Shown piece after piece: positions 47,456 to 62,666 of a DNA stretch of 64,000 nucleotides. This DNA is from an uncultured Treponema sp. (GTDB taxonomy: Bacteria > Spirochaetota > Spirochaetia > Treponematales > Treponemataceae), in contig CASGBA010000011.1 in NCBI GenBank assembly GCA_949299755.1, positions 1 through 64,000 on the forward strand, in the 5' to 3' direction. The notes under the pieces were generated by a model, which did no database searches, had not been told where the DNA came from, and saw nothing but the letters and a program-made list of their open reading frames with translations. Every line of letters starts with the position of its first letter. Within the stretch, counting starts at the first letter, position 1. A program made the translations under genes and the position numbers.

Positions 47456-49297
47456 ATGGTAAAAAATATTGAACCTAAACTCAAGAAAATTGGAGATTAT
47501 TTAAAGCTGGAAGAAGATGTTGTTTTTATTATACCGGAGTATCAGCATGCGTATTCTTGGGGTGTTGAAAATTGTGATAAGTTATGGCAAGATATAAATG
47601 ATTTTATAGATAGTGGAAGTAAAGATAGATATTTTTTCTGGAACAATTATAATTAACTGTCAAGATAACGATACAAAATTTGGTCTCATTGATGGATAGC
47701 AACGTACTACAACTTTTCTTTTATTATTAAAAGCATTATTAATCAGAATTAATATTGCAATTAACAGAACAGCAAATGACGAAGAGTCTGCAAGTCTTTG
47801 TCGTGGACTACAGGAACGCAGAAGAAATATCATGCGAATTTTATATAAAGCAGAATCGGAAGATATTTCTGATAAACCAGATTCAGAGAAAGACTCAATA
47901 ATATATAGTCGAAAAATTATTCTTGAAAATTTTTCCATAAATGAACAAAACAGAATTAAAAATAATTCTTCAGGCTATAGATTATAAAACAGCGGAGGCA
48001 GGGGTAGTAAAACTTAAATACAAGCAAAAGGATAACAGATATACAAACTTTTTTGGAAATTTTATGTTTTTTTTATAAAATCTGTGATTTATCTGATTCA
48101 CAATTAAATACAATTGCAAAATCTTGCACTGATAGTTGTGAAGTAATAGAGATAAAGAGTTGGCAAGTTGAACAGGCTATAACAATGTTTAATTCTCTCA
48201 ATTCCGATGGGTTGCCTCTTTTTGATTCAGATATTATTTCCGCTAAGTTATATGCGGAAGCTGAAAAGCTAGGTAAGCAAGTAGAATTTGCAGACTTGTG
48301 GAAGCATTTAAACGAAATCATTGATGATTTAGGAATTACTCGAATTGCGGATATTAATTCTATTTTAATGCAGTATATGTATTATATACGTACTATTAAT
48401 GGAGAAACAATAAGTGATTCAGGAGCTGTCAATGTTACTACGCCCGGATTACGAAGATATTTTACAGAAATCAACAAGACGCCAATCTCAAATCCAATAG
48501 AAATGTGTACGGATATGATTAAATTAGCAAAAATATGGAAAAAGGTTTCTGAGTATACACAAATGAAACTTTTATTAAAATTTAATGAGAATTCAAAACT
48601 TTTCTTAGCAAGTTATTTTTTTAGATTCGAAGAAGAATATATCACAAAAGAAATTGTTGAACCAATTCTTGATTATTTACTTCGATTATTCACTCTTCTT
48701 GAAATTCTCAATATAGGGTACTCCAGTAAGTATTTTAAGACATTTTTGTTTGCTGAAGAAGTAAGGTTTGTGGATGCAGGTATTTCTGTAGATGATATAA
48801 AAAATGATTTTAACAAACATATTCAATCCAACTGGGGAAAAAACTATATTAAAACATCCTTATGTGATTATGATAAAAATACCCTTGTGTATTTAAATGA
48901 ATATTTGTTTGCAAAGGAACAAGGTGTCGATTTTATTCTTGATGATAAATATGATATTGAGCATATAATGCCTTATAGCGGGAATAACCTTCAGGAGATT
49001 AGGAGGGATGCAGGTATTGACACAGAGGATGAATTTTATAATTTTGTAAATAAATTAGGTAATAAGATTATTCTTGAAGAAAAAATTAATCGTTCAATTG
49101 GAAATAAATGGTTTAGGACTAAAGTATCAACGAGCCGTATGAATAAAACAGGTTATATTGATAGTAAATATCCTATAGCTCGTACTCTTGTTTCTCAATA
49201 TCAAAAAACTGATAAACCGTTCTGGACAAAAGAAGATATTCTTGATGCCACCAAAAAGGCAAATGACAGAATTATCTGTTTTATATTTGGAAATTGA
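47456..49297 (+). pseudogene. GmrSD-like DUF262/DUF1524 restriction protein, multiply broken
   Basis: The intact family are Type IV-like restriction enzymes that attack modified DNA, using an N-terminal DUF262 domain for nucleotide binding and a C-terminal HNH (DUF1524). The start is normal: IGDYLKLEEDVVFIIPEYQH then AYSWGVENCDKLWQDI. Four lesions: an extra C at 47638; TAG at 47697-47699 in DGxQR where the family has DGQQR; one extra A in the A5 run 47958-47962; and one extra T in the T8 run 48067-48074. The piece from about 48075 reads to the end, including the HNH DIEHIMPYSGNN and a conserved GN. The gene is AT-rich. Lesions of different kinds argue against sequencing error alone. Confidence 0.85.
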
Positions 49298-49535
49298 ATG
49301 CAACATTTTTTTTTTGTTGGTACTTTGGTAGTGAAATCATCTAAAGAATTGCCACAGTGGAGGGTGCATAATTGAAATTCTAGAGAAAAATTAAGGAAGA
49401 AAGATAGAATAATTTTATCAAAAAAAGATAAAAATTCTTAAACTGTGCAAATTGATAGAGGAATAGGTGTATATGGGAAAAATAGGGTGATAAGAGAAAG
49501 TAGAAAAGATGCACTAAAAGCTAGTATTGATAAAG

Positions 49536-50022
49536 ATACCGGATATTCATGATTGGGCGCATGATAAGATTTTTGGAAAATTTGATGGCTGTGTATACAG
49601 AATGCGTCCACATTATAGAAGTGAAACGCTAAAACTTATAGTAGAATTCGATGGTATTTATTATTATGAAAACCTTGGTATAATTAGAAAGGATTTTTAA
49701 AATCAAAAAAACACGAAAAAATATGGTTATAAGGTTGTACGGATTTTTTTTTATCCAACTTATAAATGATGCAGTTAAAAAAACTTTTTAATGGTGAAAT
49801 AAAAGAACCGTTATTTGACGGTTCTTTTATTTCTTTAGGAATACAAGGGGGAAATTCCACCGCATATCTCTTTTGAGCAGGAATAAAATGTACGGTGAAG
49901 TAGTTTTTAAAATTTCCTGATCACTATGCGACAAATATTAAGGCCTGCATGAAGCAAATGATTTTTTTATCAATTTTGACTATTTTGAAGAAGAAATTAG
50001 TAATTTGAATGGAATTAAATAA
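49536..50022 (+). pseudogene. Remnant of a small endonuclease
   Basis: Parts of one reading frame are legible: IPDIHDWAHDKIFGKF and LIVEFDGIYYYEN (49536-49697), then KYGYKVVRI, LFDGSFISLGIQGGN, and FLKFPDHYATNIKA. This order matches a family of stand-alone endonuclease-like proteins (VEFDG... and YKVVRIP are typical of DUF559/PD-(D/E)XK-type nucleases). Frameshifts occur in the T-runs near 49693 and 49744, and in-frame TGA and TAG lie after STAYLF and CTVK, plus one shift near 49955. At least five lesions make it the oldest remnant here. It is unlabelled by any start. The exact family was not checked. Confidence 0.55.
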
Positions 50023-50089: not shown

Positions 50090-50759
50090 TATCATTCTAA
50101 AGAACTAGTTGCAAATCACATTGCTTGTAATATTGAATACACAAAGTCAGATGGGCAAATTAATAAAGATGTAGATGCTTTGTTTCCTGTTGAAGAAGTT
50201 CATTCGACTACAGAGCTTGTGGATGCAAAAAAAAGACAGAACTATTTATGAAAAGGTTCAAGTTGATTCTGAAGTAGAGCGTCACTTTGTTGATGTTTTG
50301 AATAATAGTACACCCCAAACGGGAGGTGTAATTTTATATTTTAAGTTTCCACCGAAATACAAAATCAATCTTCCGAAGATTATCGGTAATTACAACCCTG
50401 ACTGGGCTATCGTTCGTCGTGATGAGACGGAACAGCAACTGGAACTTGTCCGTGAGACAAAGGGGACTAGCGATTTAACTCATCTTTGGCATTTAAACGA
50501 AGTTAGTAAAATTATTTGTGCCCAAAAACATTTTAAAGCAGTTGGATTGGATTATCGCTTTATTGATGGAAAAAAAACAGATACGTACTATTTAAAGTGG
50601 TGGGAAAAAGATGTAACAAATTACCGTAACGTACTTTTGGGAAAGAATAAGAAAGATTATGACGATTTATTTAAAATTATTCTATCCTATGAAAATATAA
50701 GAAATGATACAGAGATGCTTGCTTCCGATACAACGCCTACATACGGAGATGAGAAATAA
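50090..50759 (+). pseudogene. 3' remnant of a Type III restriction Res subunit
   Basis: Only the end of a gene of roughly 900 codons remains. VANHIACNIEYTKSDGQINK is followed, after a one-base shift in the A8 run (50227-50234), by VDSEVERHFVDVLNNSTP and KFPPKYKINLPKIIGNYNPD. The block YNPDWAIV...LVRETKGT is the PD-(D/E)XK endonuclease of Type III Res subunits. The helicase part is missing to the left, where only the small-endonuclease remnant lies. No mod methyltransferase is in the window. The TAA overlaps the next ATG as TAATG, so Res and the helicase were translationally coupled. Confidence 0.8.
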
Positions 50760-52485
50760 TGAATAATGAGATCCTCTATAAACTTTTTACTGTAGAAAAC
50801 TTTATCGGTTTTGAAGATGTTTGTAAAAAAAATTTAGGGGGAACCCAACTCGTATTGATTTAAATACAAACTACCGTTCAAAAAAACAGATTGTTTCTGC
50901 CTACACCGGTTTTATGATAAATTGCGATTGGGTCGATGCCGATCATCCGGGAAAGAATTTTCGGTTTGCCGATAAAGATATCCAGGCTTTCAGTGCGGAT
51001 GATAAAACGTCTGTACTTCTGGAGAGTGGGAAAAAAGAGGATATTACACAAAATATAGTTGATATGGTGAAACGTCTGAGAGAATCTGGGAAAATAACAG
51101 ATTATAATCAATGTGCATGTTTGTTCCCGACTTTAAGAGGTGATATGGATGGTATGAGTGCAAGTGTTAAGGCTTTTGCAGAAGCATTTGAAAAAGCCGG
51201 TATTCCTTTTTACGCTCCCCGTGCAAAAAATATTTTATATACAGAAGAATTTCTTGTAACATTTGGTCTGTTTGCAAAAATTTTAAAGATTGATGATTCT
51301 GTAAGTTATTCAGAAGAGTATAGACGATGGATTAACAACGCTATTACTAGGGCAGATGAAATTATTGCCGGAGACAGTTTACTTGAAGAGTTTATTATCG
51401 AAAAATGGACAGAAATTGAATTGGCAAAACGGAACTATAAAATACTTGCCGACTACTGCGAGGAGAGAAATTGGGATTTAAAATCAAATGCTTATGAACA
51501 GACTACAAAAATCCTTTCAGGAATTCCAAAATTAGATAATGAGGTTAAAAAAGCGTTAGTTAGTACAGGCCTGAATAATCATATACGTAATAAAATAGAC
51601 CACGATGATTCGGTTTCTTTACAATATGTTTTAAATCGTGTGACAGCCTTAGACTGGACTTTACTTGACTTATTCTATCAACTTAATACATTTCTTTATT
51701 TTGCAGAAAAATATCGTCTTGCCGAAAACGGAGGAGAAGACTCTGCAATGTATAATTTTGGAATGATTACCCAATATATTTCAAAGTTTATGGAAATGAA
51801 TATGCCGATTTTATCCGGCCGTAGTTTTCAGGAGAATAAAATACCAAATCAATTTTTTAGTTCTTTTCTCTATGCTTTATTCAGGTTAGGAGAAACAGAA
51901 GTTGAAGATTCGGAGGACCCTTTTCCTAAAGGGTATGTTCCTTTTTTAACGGTACAGCAGTCAAAAGGTTTGGAGTTTCCTGTTGTTGTACTTGGTTCTG
52001 TCCAACGAAAAAATAAAGATCCTCGACTTTTAGATGTTTTAGTGCGCAAGATGCTTACGGAACATGGAAATCCTCCAGAAATTGCAGAACCTTTAGATAA
52101 GATGGAATTATTTGATTCAATGCGTCTTTTTTATGTAGCCGTCAGTCGTGCTAAAAATCTTTGTATTATAACGCAAATGACAGGATGCGGTTATTCAACT
52201 TTTATTCCGATGAAAAATTTTTTAGCATCTCAAAGGTTTGAGAATTCTGCTTCTTTTGATATAGATACCTTGCCCTCCGGTAGTAATAGGGACGATGATA
52301 CTGTTCATATGTACACTTATACAGGTGATTATCTGCCTTATAAAAACTGTCCCAGAAATTATATGGTTTTTAACAAATATGGTTTTGTTCCGTCAAGAAG
52401 TCAAACAATGTTTTTTTGGTCTTTAGTTCACGAAACAATTGAAGATTTACAAAACTTCATTATCGGAGGGTTGAATAATGAATGA
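50759..52485 (+). pseudogene. UvrD-like SF1 helicase with an internal deletion
   Basis: The gene starts at ATG 50759 with about 25 codons (MNNEILYKLFTVENFIGF), then breaks near 50838 and continues in another frame at FRGNPTRIDLNTNYRS. Helicase motifs Q, Walker A and II are missing; motif IV (NYRS), V (PFLTVQQSKGLEFPVVVLGS) and VI (MRLFYVAVSRAKNLCII) are present in about 540 codons. A UvrD-type 3'-to-5' helicase without its first RecA lobe cannot hydrolyse ATP. The C-terminal part (VPSRSQTMFFWSLVHETIED) may be a start of a nuclease-like domain. Its stop overlaps the next gene by 8 bases. AT-rich. A methionine at 50914 could start a 523-residue inactive piece. Confidence 0.82.
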
Positions 52486-53290
52486 AATGACAGATACAGA
52501 AATTGAGTTAAAACTCCGGGATTATTTTGAATCAAACTTTCAGTATTTAAAAGAAAGTTCAGGACATTCGATTGATGGTTATATGAAAGAAAAGGCCTTT
52601 CAACAAGTTTTGTATTACTGGAAGAAGAACCGTAAACTGATTGAACGAATTACCCGCTCGGAAGTAAAACTATCTTTACCGGAAAGGGTAACACCTAATC
52701 AAAAGATTCCGTATACAATAGAAGGAATTGTAGATATTGTTCAGGAAAAGGATGGAATCTGGTTATACGATTTGAAAACCCATGATATTGACCGTATTAA
52801 GGCTAACATTGAACAGTACAAAGAGCAGTTGTATATTTATTCGTATATTTGGAAAAAGCTACAAAGAAATGAGCTTGACAATACGGCTGTTATTTCAACG
52901 CCTTTACCTGATAGATTAGAAATGGCTATCCGAAAAAGAAACCCAGAGCTTATTCAGCGGGAAGTTGAATCTTGGCAACCGATTATTCCCATTGGTTACG
53001 AGGAAGAAGAAGTTGAAGAGATGATTAATAACTTTGGAGAAGTGGTAGAAAAGATAGAAAGTTCTGAGTTTGCTCCGCCAGATGTTGATGTTTTATTGAA
53101 TAAACCTAACGGTATGAAAAGTGTATTCGCTGTTCAGGTTTGTAGAAACTGCGATGTTCGCTTTAGTTGTGATTCTTATAAAAAGTATCTTGCAGTAAGT
53201 AAAGGTGCAAACCATAGTAATATGAGAAAATATATGAAACTTCCTGCTGAAGAACAAGATGAATTTATTACCGGTAACATGGAAGAGTAA
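52478..53290 (+). CDS. PD-(D/E)XK nuclease (RecB/Cas4-like)
   Basis: A 270-residue nuclease. The core is IEGIVDIVQEKDGIWLYDLK with THDIDR (about residues 80-103), giving D (VDIV), then D-L-K, followed by QYKEQLYIYSYIWKK, a RecB-motif-like helix. Near the C terminus CRNCDVRFSC supplies cysteines that could hold an iron-sulphur cluster as in Cas4/AddB. It overlaps the helicase stop as ATGAATGA, so it belonged to the same operon, and it is the only unbroken member. Whether it still does anything without its partner is unknown. Confidence 0.72.
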   Translation: MNEMTDTEIELKLRDYFESNFQYLKESSGHSIDGYMKEKAFQQVLYYWKKNRKLIERITRSEVKLSLPERVTPNQKIPYTIEGIVDIVQEKDGIWLYDLKTHDIDRIKANIEQYKEQLYIYSYIWKKLQRNELDNTAVISTPLPDRLEMAIRKRNPELIQREVESWQPIIPIGYEEEEVEEMINNFGEVVEKIESSEFAPPDVDVLLNKPNGMKSVFAVQVCRNCDVRFSCDSYKKYLAVSKGANHSNMRKYMKLPAEEQDEFITGNMEE

Positions 53291-56628: not shown

Positions 56629-57198
56629 TCAAAATATTTTCCGGATACCAAGACCCTCACCCAGCCGGCTGACAAAAAATGTATCGACAGTTACCCCACG
56701 CAAAGCGGGAATCATAAATCCCGCTGCATATAAATAAATAGAAGAAACCAGCGGATTTTCGTTGTACCGGGGTATTTCGTAAAAGCCCAGGTTTTTGTAA
56801 AGGCACAGGGCGTCTTTCAGAAAAGGCAGGGTATCCAGAAGCATTTTCCGGTATCCTGAAGTTTGAGCCTCGGTTATGAGCCGCTCTGAAATCAGCCTGC
56901 CGATACCGTATCCCCTGAATTCCTGCCGGACAAAAAGCCGTTTCATTTCGCAGGTCAGGCGGTCAATCTTCCGGAATCCGCCGCAGCCGGCAGCAACGCC
57001 GTCTGCAAAGGCTGCATAGAGCCGGCCATCCGGCGGGGAATATTTTTTGTCCAGATTCAAAAGCTCGGAATCAAAATCCTGCATTTCCAAATACCGGGCA
57101 AAACCGGGACATTCCGAAACCAGCATCCGGGTGTATTCGGTAAAAAGGCTGCGTATTTCTTCCGGACATTCCGTGCCGGGAACCAGTTCAATGTGCAT
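56629..57198 (-). CDS. GNAT-family N-acetyltransferase
   Basis: Transfers an acetyl group from acetyl-CoA to an unknown amine. The 189-residue product has motif A LFVRQEFRGYGIGRLISERL (about 89-108) with the R/Q-x-x-G-x-G pyrophosphate loop, and motif B with LDTLPFLKDALCLYKNLGFY (about 125-144). The last roughly 30 residues after SSIYLY are longer than in relatives, which may be an extension caused by an old frameshift. ATG 57198; no strong ribosome-binding site. Divergent from the hsd operon. Confidence 0.82.
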   Translation of the reverse strand: MHIELVPGTECPEEIRSLFTEYTRMLVSECPGFARYLEMQDFDSELLNLDKKYSPPDGRLYAAFADGVAAGCGGFRKIDRLTCEMKRLFVRQEFRGYGIGRLISERLITEAQTSGYRKMLLDTLPFLKDALCLYKNLGFYEIPRYNENPLVSSIYLYAAGFMIPALRGVTVDTFFVSRLGEGLGIRKIF

Positions 57199-57255
57199 AA
57201 CCTGATTTTACGGCAAATCCCCAGGAAAGCCAATGGGGCTTTTTACACCAGCCCA

Positions 57256-57285
57256 TTGGCAGTTTTACAGGAGCAGTGGTATAAT
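57256..57285 (+). promoter_or_regulatory. Promoter of the hsdRMS operon
   Basis: TTGGCA (57256-57261, 5 of 6), 18 bases, TATAAT (57280-57285, perfect). The start would be about 57292, 50 bases before ATG 57343. One of the best promoters in the window. Confidence 0.75.
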
Positions 57286-57342
57286 ACGAGAATCAATGAT
57301 GCACGGAAATTATCAGGCTCAACAACAGACGGAGAGGTGCCG

Positions 57343-59745
57343 ATGCCCGAAGACATGATATTGTCAAAAAAACAGATGACCGAAGAAGACATCAAGCTGA
57401 ATTTTATCACCCCGGCACTTTTGGGAAAGGGCTGGAAAGATAAAATCACCATGGAAACAAAGGTCTTTTTTACGGAGGGGAAAGTAAACCTCCGGGGCAA
57501 TCTGGTAAGCAGAGAAAAGCCCAAAAAGGCAGATTACATCCTATACCACACCAAAAACCATCCCTTAGCCATTGTGGAAGCAAAAGACAACAACCACAGC
57601 GTTTCTTACGGTATGCAACAGGCAAAAGACTACGCAGTCCGGCTAGACATCCCCTTTGCATACAGCTCCAACGGAGACGCCTTCCAAGAGTTTGACTTTA
57701 TTACCGGCACAGAACGGGAAATTCCGCGGGATGCCTTCCCCACACCGGAAGAACTTTTTAACCGCTATAACAAAGAAGTCAACGGAGGACAGGGTTTAAC
57801 AGACAAAGAACGCCAGCTTATGAGCCAACCCTACTACACCAGCCAAAACACCTATCCGCCCCGGTATTACCAACGCATAGCCGTGAACCGCACCATAGAA
57901 GCCATTGCCAAAGGACAAAACCGCATCCTCCTTGTTATGGCAACGGGAACAGGCAAAACCTACACCGCTTTCCAAATTGTATGGCGACTTTTACGCAGCG
58001 GTACAAAGCAAAAGATACTGTACCTTGCCGATAGAAACAATTTGATAGACCAAACCACCAGCGGAGACTTTAAGCCACTGGAAAAAGTGATACATAAAAT
58101 AGATTTTTCAAAAGACGACCCGGCAACCGTCACATCCCATCAGGTGTACTTTTCCCTGTATCAACAGTTGGTAGGAAACAAAAAAGGGGAAGACGAAACC
58201 GAAGAAGAAACCCTTGCCCGGTACAAAAAACTCTTTGACAAAGATTTTTTCGATTTGATAATTGTTGACGAGTGCCACCGGGGTTCGGCAAAAGAAGACA
58301 GCCGCTGGCGGAAAATACTGGAATATTTTTCTTCCGCCACCCAAATCGGTATGACGGCAACACCAAAAGAAACAGCTTATATTTCCAACATCGACTACTT
58401 TGGCGAACCTTTGTACAAATACAGCCTGAAAGAAGGAATAGACGACGGCTTTCTTGCTCCGTTCAGAGTGATTCGCATTAAAACAAACATAGACGATGGC
58501 TGGAGACCCCGGGCAGGACAACGGGATATTTACGGCAACGAAATAGAAGACCGCATATACAACAACCGGGACTACGACACAAACATCATCATCCAAGACC
58601 GCATCAACATAGTTGCCCAAGAGATAACACACTATCTGAAAGCAACAGACAGAATGGCAAAAACAATCGTCTTCTGTCCCACAGAAGATGCTGCGGAACG
58701 GATGCGGGTAGCACTGACAAACCAGAACGCGGATATGTGCGCCCAAAATCCCGACTACGTTGTCCGCATTACCGGCAGCGATGACTACGGCAAAAAGAAA
58801 CTGGATTACTTTATTTCCGTTTCTGCCCCGTACCCGGTTATTGCCACCACGTCAAAACTCCTTTCAACCGGTTCCGACTGCAAAATGGTCAAACTGATTG
58901 TCTTGGATGAAATGATAAGCTCCATGACGGAATTCAAACAGATAATCGGACGGGGAACACGGCTCCGCTGGAAAGACGGAAAGACCCACTTTGTGATAAT
59001 GGATTTCCGGGGCGTGACCAATCTGTTTGCCGACCCGGACTGGGACGGTCCCATAGAAATTAACGAAAACTTTTACGATGAAAAACCCGGGGAAGGCGAA
59101 AGTCCTCAAAAAGAAAACAGGGATGGAGAAATCGAAGTGGGGGAAGAGCCGCCGGAGTATGAAAAGCCCAAACCCATCGTAGACAAAGACGGTTGTACCG
59201 TGGAAATTATCCATAAAACCGTTTCGGTGTACGACACCAACGGCAAACTGCTACGGCAAGAAAGCATTACCGACTACACCAAAGAAAACATCCGGGGAGA
59301 ATACGCTTCTTTAGACAACTTTATCCGGCAGTGGCGGGAACAGGACAAAAAAGAAGAAATACGGGATTTACTCCGGGAACGGGGAATCGACTTGGAATCC
59401 ATTAAAGCCGACCAAAACATGAAAGGCGTTGACGACTTTGACTTTATCTGTCACGTGGCATTTGACGCAAAACCCCTGACCCGCCGGGAACGGGCAAACA
59501 ACGTGAAAAAGCAAGACTTTTTCGGCAAGTACAGCGGTGCCGCCCGGGAAGTACTGGAAGCCTTGCTGGAAAAATATGCCGACAGCGGCATCTATGAAAT
59601 AGAAGATATCGATATTCTGAAACTTGACCCCTTCGTCAGATTCGGAAAACCCGCAAAAATCGCCCAACTCTTTGGAGGCAGAGAAGGCTACCTGCAAGCA
59701 GTACGGGAACTGGAACAAGCAATATATACAAAAGAGGCAGTGTAA
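57343..59745 (+). CDS. hsdR: Type I restriction endonuclease subunit R, EcoEI-type
   Basis: The motor and nuclease subunit of a Type I restriction complex. ATG 57343 follows GGAGAGG; longer frames lack a ribosome-binding site and read through the promoter. In 800 residues: N-terminal PD-(D/E)XK nuclease KADYILYHTKNHPLAIVEAK (about 55-80), Walker A MATGTGKTYTA (about 200), DECHRGSA (about 305), MTATPKETA, and motif VI QIIGRGTRLRW (about 530), then an EcoEI-type C-terminal domain that binds the M2S core (QDFFGKYSGAAREVLEALLE, DPFVRFGKPAKIAQLFGG). It is complete. hsdM starts 3 bases after its stop. Confidence 0.95.
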   Translation: MPEDMILSKKQMTEEDIKLNFITPALLGKGWKDKITMETKVFFTEGKVNLRGNLVSREKPKKADYILYHTKNHPLAIVEAKDNNHSVSYGMQQAKDYAVRLDIPFAYSSNGDAFQEFDFITGTEREIPRDAFPTPEELFNRYNKEVNGGQGLTDKERQLMSQPYYTSQNTYPPRYYQRIAVNRTIEAIAKGQNRILLVMATGTGKTYTAFQIVWRLLRSGTKQKILYLADRNNLIDQTTSGDFKPLEKVIHKIDFSKDDPATVTSHQVYFSLYQQLVGNKKGEDETEEETLARYKKLFDKDFFDLIIVDECHRGSAKEDSRWRKILEYFSSATQIGMTATPKETAYISNIDYFGEPLYKYSLKEGIDDGFLAPFRVIRIKTNIDDGWRPRAGQRDIYGNEIEDRIYNNRDYDTNIIIQDRINIVAQEITHYLKATDRMAKTIVFCPTEDAAERMRVALTNQNADMCAQNPDYVVRITGSDDYGKKKLDYFISVSAPYPVIATTSKLLSTGSDCKMVKLIVLDEMISSMTEFKQIIGRGTRLRWKDGKTHFVIMDFRGVTNLFADPDWDGPIEINENFYDEKPGEGESPQKENRDGEIEVGEEPPEYEKPKPIVDKDGCTVEIIHKTVSVYDTNGKLLRQESITDYTKENIRGEYASLDNFIRQWREQDKKEEIRDLLRERGIDLESIKADQNMKGVDDFDFICHVAFDAKPLTRRERANNVKKQDFFGKYSGAAREVLEALLEKYADSGIYEIEDIDILKLDPFVRFGKPAKIAQLFGGREGYLQAVRELEQAIYTKEAV

Positions 59746-59748
59746 ATC

Positions 59749-61263
59749 ATGACCAACTTAACCGGATTTGTAAAACGGCTCAGGGATATTATGCGCAACG
59801 ATGCCGGCATTAACGGCGACGCCCAGCGAATTGAACAGATAGCATGGCTTTTATTTTTAAAAGTCTACGACACCAAAGAACAGGACTGGGAGTTTGAAGA
59901 CTCAGACTATCGCTCCATCATCCCTGAACCTTGCCGCTGGCGTAACTGGGCACACGAAGAAAACGGCAAAGGCATGACCGGCGACGCTCTCCTGTCTTTT
60001 GTGAACAACACCCTTTTCCCGGTACTCAAAGGCAATGACGTAAAAGACCCCGCCACCGGCACCCTGATTCCCGGCGTACAGGTAGACCCCGACACTCCCA
60101 TTAAAAAAGCCATAGTCAAAACCACCTTTGAAGACGCCAACACCTACATGAAAGACGGCGTCCTGTTGCGTCAGGTAATAAACCATATCGACTCTCTGGA
60201 TTTAAGCAACTACGAAGAAAGTCACGCCTTTGGAGAGATTTACGAAACGATTTTGCGGGAACTGCAAAGCGCCGGCTCTTCCGGTGAGTTTTACACGCCC
60301 CGTGCCGTCACCGATTTTATGGCACACATGATACAGCCCAAAGTCGGGGAACAGTGTGCCGATTTTGCCTGCGGTACCGGAGGTTTTTTAATCAGCTGGC
60401 TGAAAGAGCTTGAAGCTAAAAAGAAAAACGCCGGAGACGTGGAAAAAATATACAATTCCGTTTACGGCATAGAAAAAAAACAATTTCCCTACATTCTGTG
60501 CGTCACCAACATGTTGCTTCACGATGTAGATGTTCCCCGGATTTTTTACGGTAACACTCTGCTCCGCAATCTGCTGGACTATACCGACGACGACAAGTTT
60601 GAAGTTATTCTGATGAATCCCCCTTATGGCGGAAACGAAAAAGCCGACGTTAAAAATCATTTTCCTGCGGATTTGGCAAGCAGCGAAACTGCCGACTTGT
60701 TTATGTCCGTGATAATGTACCGCCTCAAAGAAAAGGGACGGGCAGCAGTCATTTTGCCCGACGGTTTTCTCTTTGGAACAGACAATGCAAAAGTCGCCAT
60801 TAAAAAGAAACTTTTTGGGGAATTCAACCTGCACACCGTTATCCGCCTTCCCGGCAGCGTTTTTTCTCCTTATACGTCCATTACCACGAATATTTTGTTT
60901 TTTGGCAAAACCGGTGCCACAAAAGAAACCTGGTTTTACCGTCTTGATATGCCGGAAGGCTACAAACATTTTTCCAAGACAAAACCCATGAAGGTGGAAC
61001 ACTTTGCCCCCGCCGTGGAGTGGTGGAATGACCGCAGGGAAATCACGGTAGACGACGCTCCCAAAGCAAAAAAATATTCCGCAGAAGACATTGCCGCCTT
61101 GGGCTACAACATAGACCTGTGCGGCTTTCCCCATCGGGAAGAAGAAATCCTTGCTCCCCTTGATTTGATTCGCCGGTATGAAGAAGAACGCTCTTCCCTC
61201 AATGCGGAAATCGACCGGGTACTGGCAGACATGAGTGCCCTGTTGGGAGAACAAGCCGAATGA
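59749..61263 (+). CDS. hsdM: Type I DNA methyltransferase subunit M
   Basis: Methylates adenine N6 in the recognition site with S-adenosylmethionine. The 504-residue product has the N-terminal helical HsdM domain (RDIMRNDAGINGDAQRIEQI), motif I DFACGTGGFL (about residue 205) and motif IV NPPYGG (about residue 290). It overlaps hsdS by four bases (ATGA). The protein is intact. It is similar in type to the EcoEI class methylases that pair with this hsdR. Confidence 0.96.
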   Translation: MTNLTGFVKRLRDIMRNDAGINGDAQRIEQIAWLLFLKVYDTKEQDWEFEDSDYRSIIPEPCRWRNWAHEENGKGMTGDALLSFVNNTLFPVLKGNDVKDPATGTLIPGVQVDPDTPIKKAIVKTTFEDANTYMKDGVLLRQVINHIDSLDLSNYEESHAFGEIYETILRELQSAGSSGEFYTPRAVTDFMAHMIQPKVGEQCADFACGTGGFLISWLKELEAKKKNAGDVEKIYNSVYGIEKKQFPYILCVTNMLLHDVDVPRIFYGNTLLRNLLDYTDDDKFEVILMNPPYGGNEKADVKNHFPADLASSETADLFMSVIMYRLKEKGRAAVILPDGFLFGTDNAKVAIKKKLFGEFNLHTVIRLPGSVFSPYTSITTNILFFGKTGATKETWFYRLDMPEGYKHFSKTKPMKVEHFAPAVEWWNDRREITVDDAPKAKKYSAEDIAALGYNIDLCGFPHREEEILAPLDLIRRYEEERSSLNAEIDRVLADMSALLGEQAE

Positions 61264-62666
61264 CACCCCAGGAACTAAAAAACAGCATTTTACAGCAGGC
61301 CATACAGGGAAAGCTGGTAGAACAACGCCCGGAAGAAGGCACGGCAGAAGAACTGTTCCAACTGATACAGAAAGAAAAACAACGACTGATTGCAGACGGC
61401 AAAATAAAAAAAGAAAAACCCCTGCCGGAAATTACCGAAGACGAAAAACCCTTTGACATCCCCGAAAATTGGAAGTGGGTAAGGTTGGGGGAGATATGTC
61501 AATTATTGGATTCTGAAATCATTCATGACAAGAAATTTCCGTATTTAGAAGCAAAATACTTAAGAGGAAAAGCAGAAGCACGAATTCTAGAAACTGGTAA
61601 ATTTATAAAAGCTGGTACAAAAGTAATCCTTGTTGATGGCGAGAATTCTGGAGAAGTTTTTGATATTCCAGAAGATGGGTATATGGGAAGTACTTTTAAA
61701 ATCCTTTTTATGCCATCAAGTATTTTCACAGATTATGTTTTACGATTTTTGGAGCTTCACAAAAATACATTGAAGAACAATAAAAAGGGAGCCGCGATTC
61801 CCCATTTGAATAAAGATATATTTTTTAATTTGAATTTTCCCCTTCCCCCCTTTGCCGAACAAAAACGTATCGTCGCCAAAATCGAAGAACTGTTGCCCTA
61901 TATTCACCGCTACGAAGAATCATGGCTCAAACTGGAAGCTTTTAACAGCCGTTTCCCCGACGACATGAAAAAATCCCTCTTACAGTACGCTATACAGGGC
62001 AAACTGGTGGAACAACGCCCGGAAGAAGGCACGGCAGAAGAACTGTTTGAACGGATACAGAAAGAAAAACAGCGGCTCATAGCAGAAGGCAAGATAAAAA
62101 AAGAAAAACCCCTGCCGGAAATTACCGAAGAAGAAAAACCCTTTGACATACCTGAAAGTTGGAAGTGGGTAAGAATTGGAGATGTGTGTATAAATATCCA
62201 ATATGGGTCTTCTCAAAAATCATCACAAACAGGAAAGATAGCTGTTTTAAGAATGGGAAATCTTCAAGATGGAAAAATAATTCTCGATAAATTAGTTTAT
62301 ACTTCAGATGAAGAAGAGATAAAAAAATATCCATTACAATATGGTGATTTGCTTTTTAATAGGACTAATAGTAAAGAATTAGTTGGAAAAACTGCTATTT
62401 ATCGAGGGGAAATTCCGGCTATTTATGCCGGTTATCTTGTTCGTCTAACTCCACTTCTAGCAGAAAGTGATTACATTAATTATGTAATGCAATCAACATT
62501 TTACTGGAATTACTGCCAATCAGTTAGGAGCGATGCAATAGGACAATCTAACATTAATGCAGAAAAATTAAAACGATTTGAGTTTCCCCTTCCGCCTCTT
62601 CCCGAACAAAAACGCATCGTCGCCAAACTGGAAGAATTGCTGCCGTTGTGTGAGCGGTTGAAGTAG
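61260..62666 (+). CDS. hsdS: Type I specificity subunit S with internal direct repeats
   Basis: Sets the DNA target through two recognition domains (TRDs). The 468-residue product has two near-identical conserved blocks, each MTPQELKNSILQQAIQGK-like then LVEQRPEEGTAEELF, IQKEKQRLIA, PLPEITE and KPFDIPE.WKWVR, at about residues 7-78 and 237-308. TRD1 lies between about 80 and 200, TRD2 between about 310 and 450; each is followed by F.LPP..EQKRIVAK.EELLP. The TRDs are AT-rich, the conserved blocks are not. No stop or frameshift is present. The repeat offset is exactly 690 bases (230 codons), so recombination between the repeats would keep the frame. Confidence 0.93.
   Translation: MTPQELKNSILQQAIQGKLVEQRPEEGTAEELFQLIQKEKQRLIADGKIKKEKPLPEITEDEKPFDIPENWKWVRLGEICQLLDSEIIHDKKFPYLEAKYLRGKAEARILETGKFIKAGTKVILVDGENSGEVFDIPEDGYMGSTFKILFMPSSIFTDYVLRFLELHKNTLKNNKKGAAIPHLNKDIFFNLNFPLPPFAEQKRIVAKIEELLPYIHRYEESWLKLEAFNSRFPDDMKKSLLQYAIQGKLVEQRPEEGTAEELFERIQKEKQRLIAEGKIKKEKPLPEITEEEKPFDIPESWKWVRIGDVCINIQYGSSQKSSQTGKIAVLRMGNLQDGKIILDKLVYTSDEEEIKKYPLQYGDLLFNRTNSKELVGKTAIYRGEIPAIYAGYLVRLTPLLAESDYINYVMQSTFYWNYCQSVRSDAIGQSNINAEKLKRFEFPLPPLPEQKRIVAKLEELLPLCERLK
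61284..61489. repeat. hsdS direct repeat, copy 1
   Basis: About 205 bases repeated at 61974-62179 with an exact offset of 690. Runs of 30-38 identical bases occur (for example 61320-61357, and 61408-61440). It includes the conserved helical block before TRD1. Confidence 0.85.
61974..62179. repeat. hsdS direct repeat, copy 2
   Basis: Partner of 61284-61489, before TRD2. Identical runs at 62010-62047 and 62098-62130. Provides homology for exchange of TRDs with another hsdS or for deletion of TRD1. Confidence 0.85.

Follow-up and report, generated by a model that had tools for sequence, protein, structure and literature searches.

Type III restriction-modification enzymes depend on Mod for target recognition and on Res for cleavage driven by ATP, and enzymes of the RecB/AddB type load onto DNA ends. 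The two kinds of enzyme have been linked before: fusions of UvrD with Cas4 most commonly neighbour the Type III genes for Mod and Res, and were judged likely to belong to defence systems in an ancillary capacity, on evidence drawn only from genome context (Hudaiberdiev et al., 2017; PMC5704561). The same paper noted an unfused UvrD/Cas4 pair, mostly in Clostridiales, whose contexts were not indicative of defence. In the open-licence literature we found no experimental studies of a helicase-nuclease that aids Type III restriction.

Here we describe a locus in an uncultured Treponema sp. that a first-pass annotation had put forward as a possible undescribed defence system. A UvrD-Cas4-like protein beside Type III Mod and Res was, however, already in print, and the locus is a decayed member of the association described in 2017, with no undescribed triplet. 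It is very probably what remains of a rearranged Type III restriction-modification operon that carried a UvrD-Cas4-like (RecB/AddB-like) helicase-nuclease. What has not been described, as far as the literature that we searched shows, is the split form of this helicase-nuclease tied to Mod and Res, together with a branch of it that has lost the catalytic lysine.

A broken three-gene locus

The window, by which we mean the whole 64,000-nucleotide stretch of DNA analysed, contains at 50099-53290 of its forward strand three genes: a C-terminal remnant of a Res protein, a UvrD-type helicase with an N-terminal deletion that removes most of its first 310 or so residues, and an intact PD-(D/E)XK nuclease. 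This part of the window is AT-rich, with 29-35% GC across 48-53 kb compared to 45% for the whole. Homology to Res begins slightly 5' of the open reading frame and changes frame, running from 50099 to 50227 in one and from 50232 to 50759 in another. The upstream piece (50099..50231, + strand), located by tblastn with the Res proteins of relatives L009, L010, L011 and L013, is 72% identical over 43 aa to the Res of genome G116. The downstream piece (50232..50759, + strand) is a C-terminal endonuclease domain (PF19778 RE_endonuc, E 1.3e-27; PADLOC REase_III) with 60% identity to residues 2-172 of the 175 residues of the same protein; its tail and stop look natural, and the tail is similar in G116.

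The helicase gene is damaged differently. Comparison with the N-termini of L002, L012, L009 and L126, and with motif III, indicates that 50759..50841 (+ strand) probably holds the gene start with about 10 N-terminal codons, joined to the region past motif III by an internal deletion of about 300 codons with a frame break near 50840; this stretch also gives a weak tblastn match to residues 296-323 of L012 (E 0.03). The open frame that follows (50842..52485, + strand) encodes the C-terminal two thirds of a UvrD/RecB-type SF1 helicase, as judged by its UvrD_C domain (E 1.5e-13) and its position in the tree. It retains only about residues 318-883 in the numbering of its relatives and is 51% identical to residues 332-873 of L002, with a tblastn E value (1e-179) far beyond chance. 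The last gene (52478..53290, + strand) is a complete frame of 270 aa, with the motifs GIVD and DLKT and three C-terminal cysteines (CRNCDVRFSC), and matches PDDEXK_1 over profile positions 83-247 (E 3.4e-09).

Adjacent genes overlap, by TAATG at 50757-50761 between Res and helicase and by the 8 bases ATGAATGA at 52478-52485 between helicase and nuclease. The first-pass annotation had thus been right about the three protein types (PF19778, UvrD_C and PDDEXK_1 in Pfam terms), about the overlaps and the operon logic that they imply, and about the first two genes being broken, the one by truncation and a frame change, the other by deletion and a frame break.

It had also noted the absence of a methyltransferase, and tblastn indeed found no Mod-like sequence within the 64-kb window. 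Searches of the source genome with single protein queries found no second Res and no Mod of the operon's type; the only methyltransferase recovered by the Mod search, a 449-aa beta-class enzyme encoded elsewhere, shares 31% with the operon Mods. Since Mod is missing from the window, and none of its type was found in the genome, the window copy is a remnant and no working member of a Type III system. Of the SF2 helicase and C-terminal endonuclease that make up a Type III Res it retains the endonuclease end only, and with Mod gone and both Res and helicase truncated, restriction is not to be expected of it.

Other defence genes lie close by. A broken GmrSD-like (DUF262-type) gene at 47456-49297 has the C-terminal domain PF07510 and partial PADLOC matches to HEC-06, Orf5 and SspE, and 49520-49760 contains what is left of a further reading frame, KLIVEFDGIYYYENLGIIRKDF ... 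YGYKVVRIFFYPTYK, which resembles a fragment of an endonuclease-type gene. Downstream, an apparently complete Type I restriction-modification set (HsdR, HsdM and an HsdS-like protein; 57193-62666) is followed from 62725 by the gene for a P-loop ATPase that has membrane segments. With a Type I set and a Type III remnant, the region is therefore rich in defence genes.

Intact relatives in other spirochaetes

We searched spirochaete genomes for relatives and read their neighbourhoods, which revealed two forms of the helicase-nuclease, one split into two genes and one fused. Intact copies of the operon, which the first-pass annotation had expected to exist elsewhere, are present in related spirochaetes. 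Eight split loci besides that in the window have an intact nuclease active site (L009, L010, L011, L013, L123, L125, L126 and L131), and all eight share the order helicase-nuclease-Mod-(accessory)-Res, with L123 truncated by its contig, where the helicase is visible just at its end and Res just in part. In L009, Mod and Res match the PADLOC families MTase_III (2.7e-167) and REase_III (3.8e-158). Between Mod and Res, L010 (5411-6894) and L011 (5688-7177) encode Fic/Doc and RhuM-like (ORF6N) proteins, the pair in L010 matching the PADLOC candidates PDC-M59A/B.

The fused proteins are about 950-990 aa long. Mod lies downstream of them in L014-L017, L032, L035, L036 and L133-L138, followed by a Res-like protein where the contig reaches that far; in L033 Mod is further off with other genes between, and L034 has no Mod. 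By eye, the genes between fusion and Mod in L033 (3229-9147) encode metallo-beta-lactamase-like and trypsin-like proteins and a large one of unknown kind, and those in L138 (5535-8764) comprise an AAA ATPase gene with its neighbours. Three plasmids carry fused loci: a mobilizable one, and two from Alphaproteobacteria that also bear genes for type IV secretion. Viral contigs that we searched yielded no relative.

In the helicase tree, the split proteins group with the fused ones, away from the source genome's UvrD/PcrA/AddA-type helicases (support 100/100), and within this group the split form is monophyletic; the UvrD-Cas4 class was here set by the published description (PMC5704561), the tree containing fused proteins that match it and not the paper's own sequences. 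The helicase of L039, on a long branch outside the group, was not counted. The window helicase is sister to that of L126 (support 100/99), which belongs to a whole operon. Mod is thus a regular part of the system, although the window lacks it.

These relatives bear directly on the proposal of a three-gene, methyltransferase-free Res-UvrD-nuclease system. The order and overlaps in the window would suit it, as would the lack of Mod there and of any Mod of the type in the genome, but its gene set and order recur in no relative, all active relatives including the sister L126 have Mod, and the only copy is broken in two of its three genes; we regard such a system as highly improbable. The conserved triplet that the first-pass annotation had proposed to look for is not kept, in that the helicase comes first in every relative whereas the window has its Res fragment on the 5' side of the helicase.

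This odd order needs its own explanation. The first residues of the window helicase resemble a true N-terminus when compared with relatives, and the arrangement would be accounted for by tandem duplication and subsequent deletion, or by some other rearrangement; since Res precedes the helicase, the locus could also be a composite of two operons. A different account would join two unrelated decayed systems, the tail of an ordinary Type III Res and a UvrD-Cas4 pair of separate origin. The unique order fits this, and the closest match to the window Res, that of G116 (the 60% match), is not followed by a helicase-nuclease, nor was any nuclease match found in G116. However, the contig of G116 ends just upstream of its Res, so that the operon there cannot be read, the window Res shares its type with the Res proteins of the helicase-nuclease operons L126, L010, L011 and L013, and the start/stop overlap looks native. 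We consider a junction of two unrelated systems unlikely and retain the reading as one decayed, rearranged operon.

A nuclease domain divided between two genes

The first-pass annotation treated helicase and nuclease as separate enzymes, but the nuclease domain straddles the boundary between their genes. Fused relatives match PDDEXK_1 over profile positions 5-247, whereas split nuclease genes match it over about 83-247, positions 1-82 being absent from them. The missing start of the domain, with its conserved CPxxY cysteine and LVHxTIEDL helix, aligns to the C-terminus of the helicase gene; in the window, alignment with fused relatives places this first segment (CPRNY cysteine, SLVHETIEDL) at 52321..52464 (+ strand), and pfam12705 (PDDEXK_1) is complete only across both genes. 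The break falls at the identical point in 7 of the 7 split loci aligned, and in a profile-profile comparison (99.7% probability) the match between the fused nuclease and the split one starts no earlier than fused residue 57.

The cysteines are divided in the same way. Fe-S nucleases of the Cas4 and AddB kinds have one N-terminal and three C-terminal cysteines (PMC3466216), and the window has one in the helicase gene (CPRNY) and three, as CxxCx5C (CRNCDVRFSC), in the nuclease gene, which also carries the RecB active site (GIVD...DLKT). Given the domain split at the gene boundary and this Cas4/AddB arrangement of cysteines, the two genes look like one RecB/AddB/Cas4-like helicase-nuclease made as two chains, not like independent enzymes. 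The two halves would then be physical partners, and the putative cysteine ligands may bind an Fe-S cluster. The case for a split fold is one of sequence, since structure prediction for the nuclease alone, from a two-row alignment, gave an unusable model (mean pLDDT 36.9); a PDB sequence search returned nothing meaningful for the split nuclease and one weak Cas4/Cas1 match (E 0.005) for the fused domain. Programmed frameshifting between the two genes was judged unlikely because their offset is not conserved: they overlap by 8, 4 or 1 bases, or lie 3 bases apart.

Compared with described systems, the spirochaete operons resemble the UvrD-Cas4 association of PMC5704561 most plainly, with a UvrD SF1 helicase and a pfam12705 Cas4-like nuclease beside Mod and Res, but the spirochaete form consists of two genes split within the nuclease domain, and the copy in the window has decayed, with its gene order changed. 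Type III systems of the EcoP15I type share the Mod and Res families of the intact relatives, and PF19778 with the window, but the relatives carry the extra helicase-nuclease upstream of Mod, and the window is without Mod and has only the C-terminus of Res. AddAB and RecBCD likewise combine an SF1 helicase with a nuclease of the RecB family whose four cysteines follow the AddB/Cas4-like pattern, whereas the proteins described here form a clade separate from the genome's AddA-like protein, are tied to Mod and Res and spread the nuclease domain over two genes. Gabija has a UvrD-like helicase, and there are partial PADLOC matches to GajB, but the nuclease here is of the PD-(D/E)XK type and the GajA (OLD/TOPRIM) partner is lacking: neither Pfam nor PADLOC matched a GajA OLD-family/TOPRIM nuclease among the operon proteins. 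As named defence families for the window helicase and nuclease, PADLOC, NCBIfam and PHROGs offered only weak or partial GajB, DruK, Cas4 and RecB matches.

A stand-alone branch without the catalytic lysine

Within the split form, L002 (=L124), L012, L089, L127, L128 and L130 make up a branch (support 95/96) for which Mod and Res were not seen in the available sequence, several of the contigs being short. Every member has lost the catalytic lysine, with LFDITT, LFDVTT, LFHLTS or LYNLTV against DxKT in active copies, and some are without the aspartate as well; in L130, helicase and nuclease form a single open frame. Two genomes (G670 and G713) each hold one active copy linked to Mod and Res and one stand-alone copy. 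The window lies outside this branch, having kept DLKT and a helicase sister to that of L126.

The branch matters for what the helicase-nuclease does. It might be a repair enzyme that guards the host against its own Type III breaks, and not an attack module, as its RecB/AddB-type architecture, the partial redundancy with RecB and the role in recombination suggested in PMC5704561, and the persistence of offshoot relatives without Mod or Res would allow. Yet the catalytic lysine is gone from these offshoots, and the nuclease therefore seems to be needed only beside Mod and Res; moreover, an AddA-like enzyme of 1127 aa is already encoded by the genome. Such a repair role appears rather unlikely to us. 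The loss of the lysine where Mod and Res are missing favours a link between nuclease activity and the restriction partners, and is compatible with attack as well as with repair.

Next to some of the stand-alone helicases lies a divergent gene (L012, 5491-6579) that was considered as a partner and rejected, as its relatives mostly adjoin an ion-channel-like gene. In genomes related to Treponema, members of this 360-aa family recur next to such an ion-channel-like gene, of about 270 aa (L090-L094, L096 and L097).

Discussion

In an intact operon, Mod would methylate host sites, and Mod and Res together would recognise and cut invading DNA that is unmethylated. The helicase-nuclease, whose two overlapping genes would yield products that must combine for a complete Cas4/AddB-like nuclease domain, would probably load on the ends made by Res, unwind the DNA and degrade it, such that a cut becomes destruction. 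For this last step, the degradation of ends after cutting by Res, we hold the chances to be evenly balanced. A fuller version is more tentative, and we would put it at somewhat below even: in this spirochaete lineage a single Cas4/AddB-like nuclease domain, its metal-cluster cysteines included, is put together from two chains through coupled translation as a dedicated destroyer of DNA ends for a Type III system, while a side branch without restriction kept the split helicase, lost catalysis and took another job.

As a broken remnant, the copy in the window is of little importance in itself. That the helicase-nuclease recurs in Type III operons points to a dedicated partner which completes the destruction of DNA once Res has made its cut, and the split nuclease domain, together with an offshoot clade whose active site is dead, provides a simple genetic and biochemical entry point.
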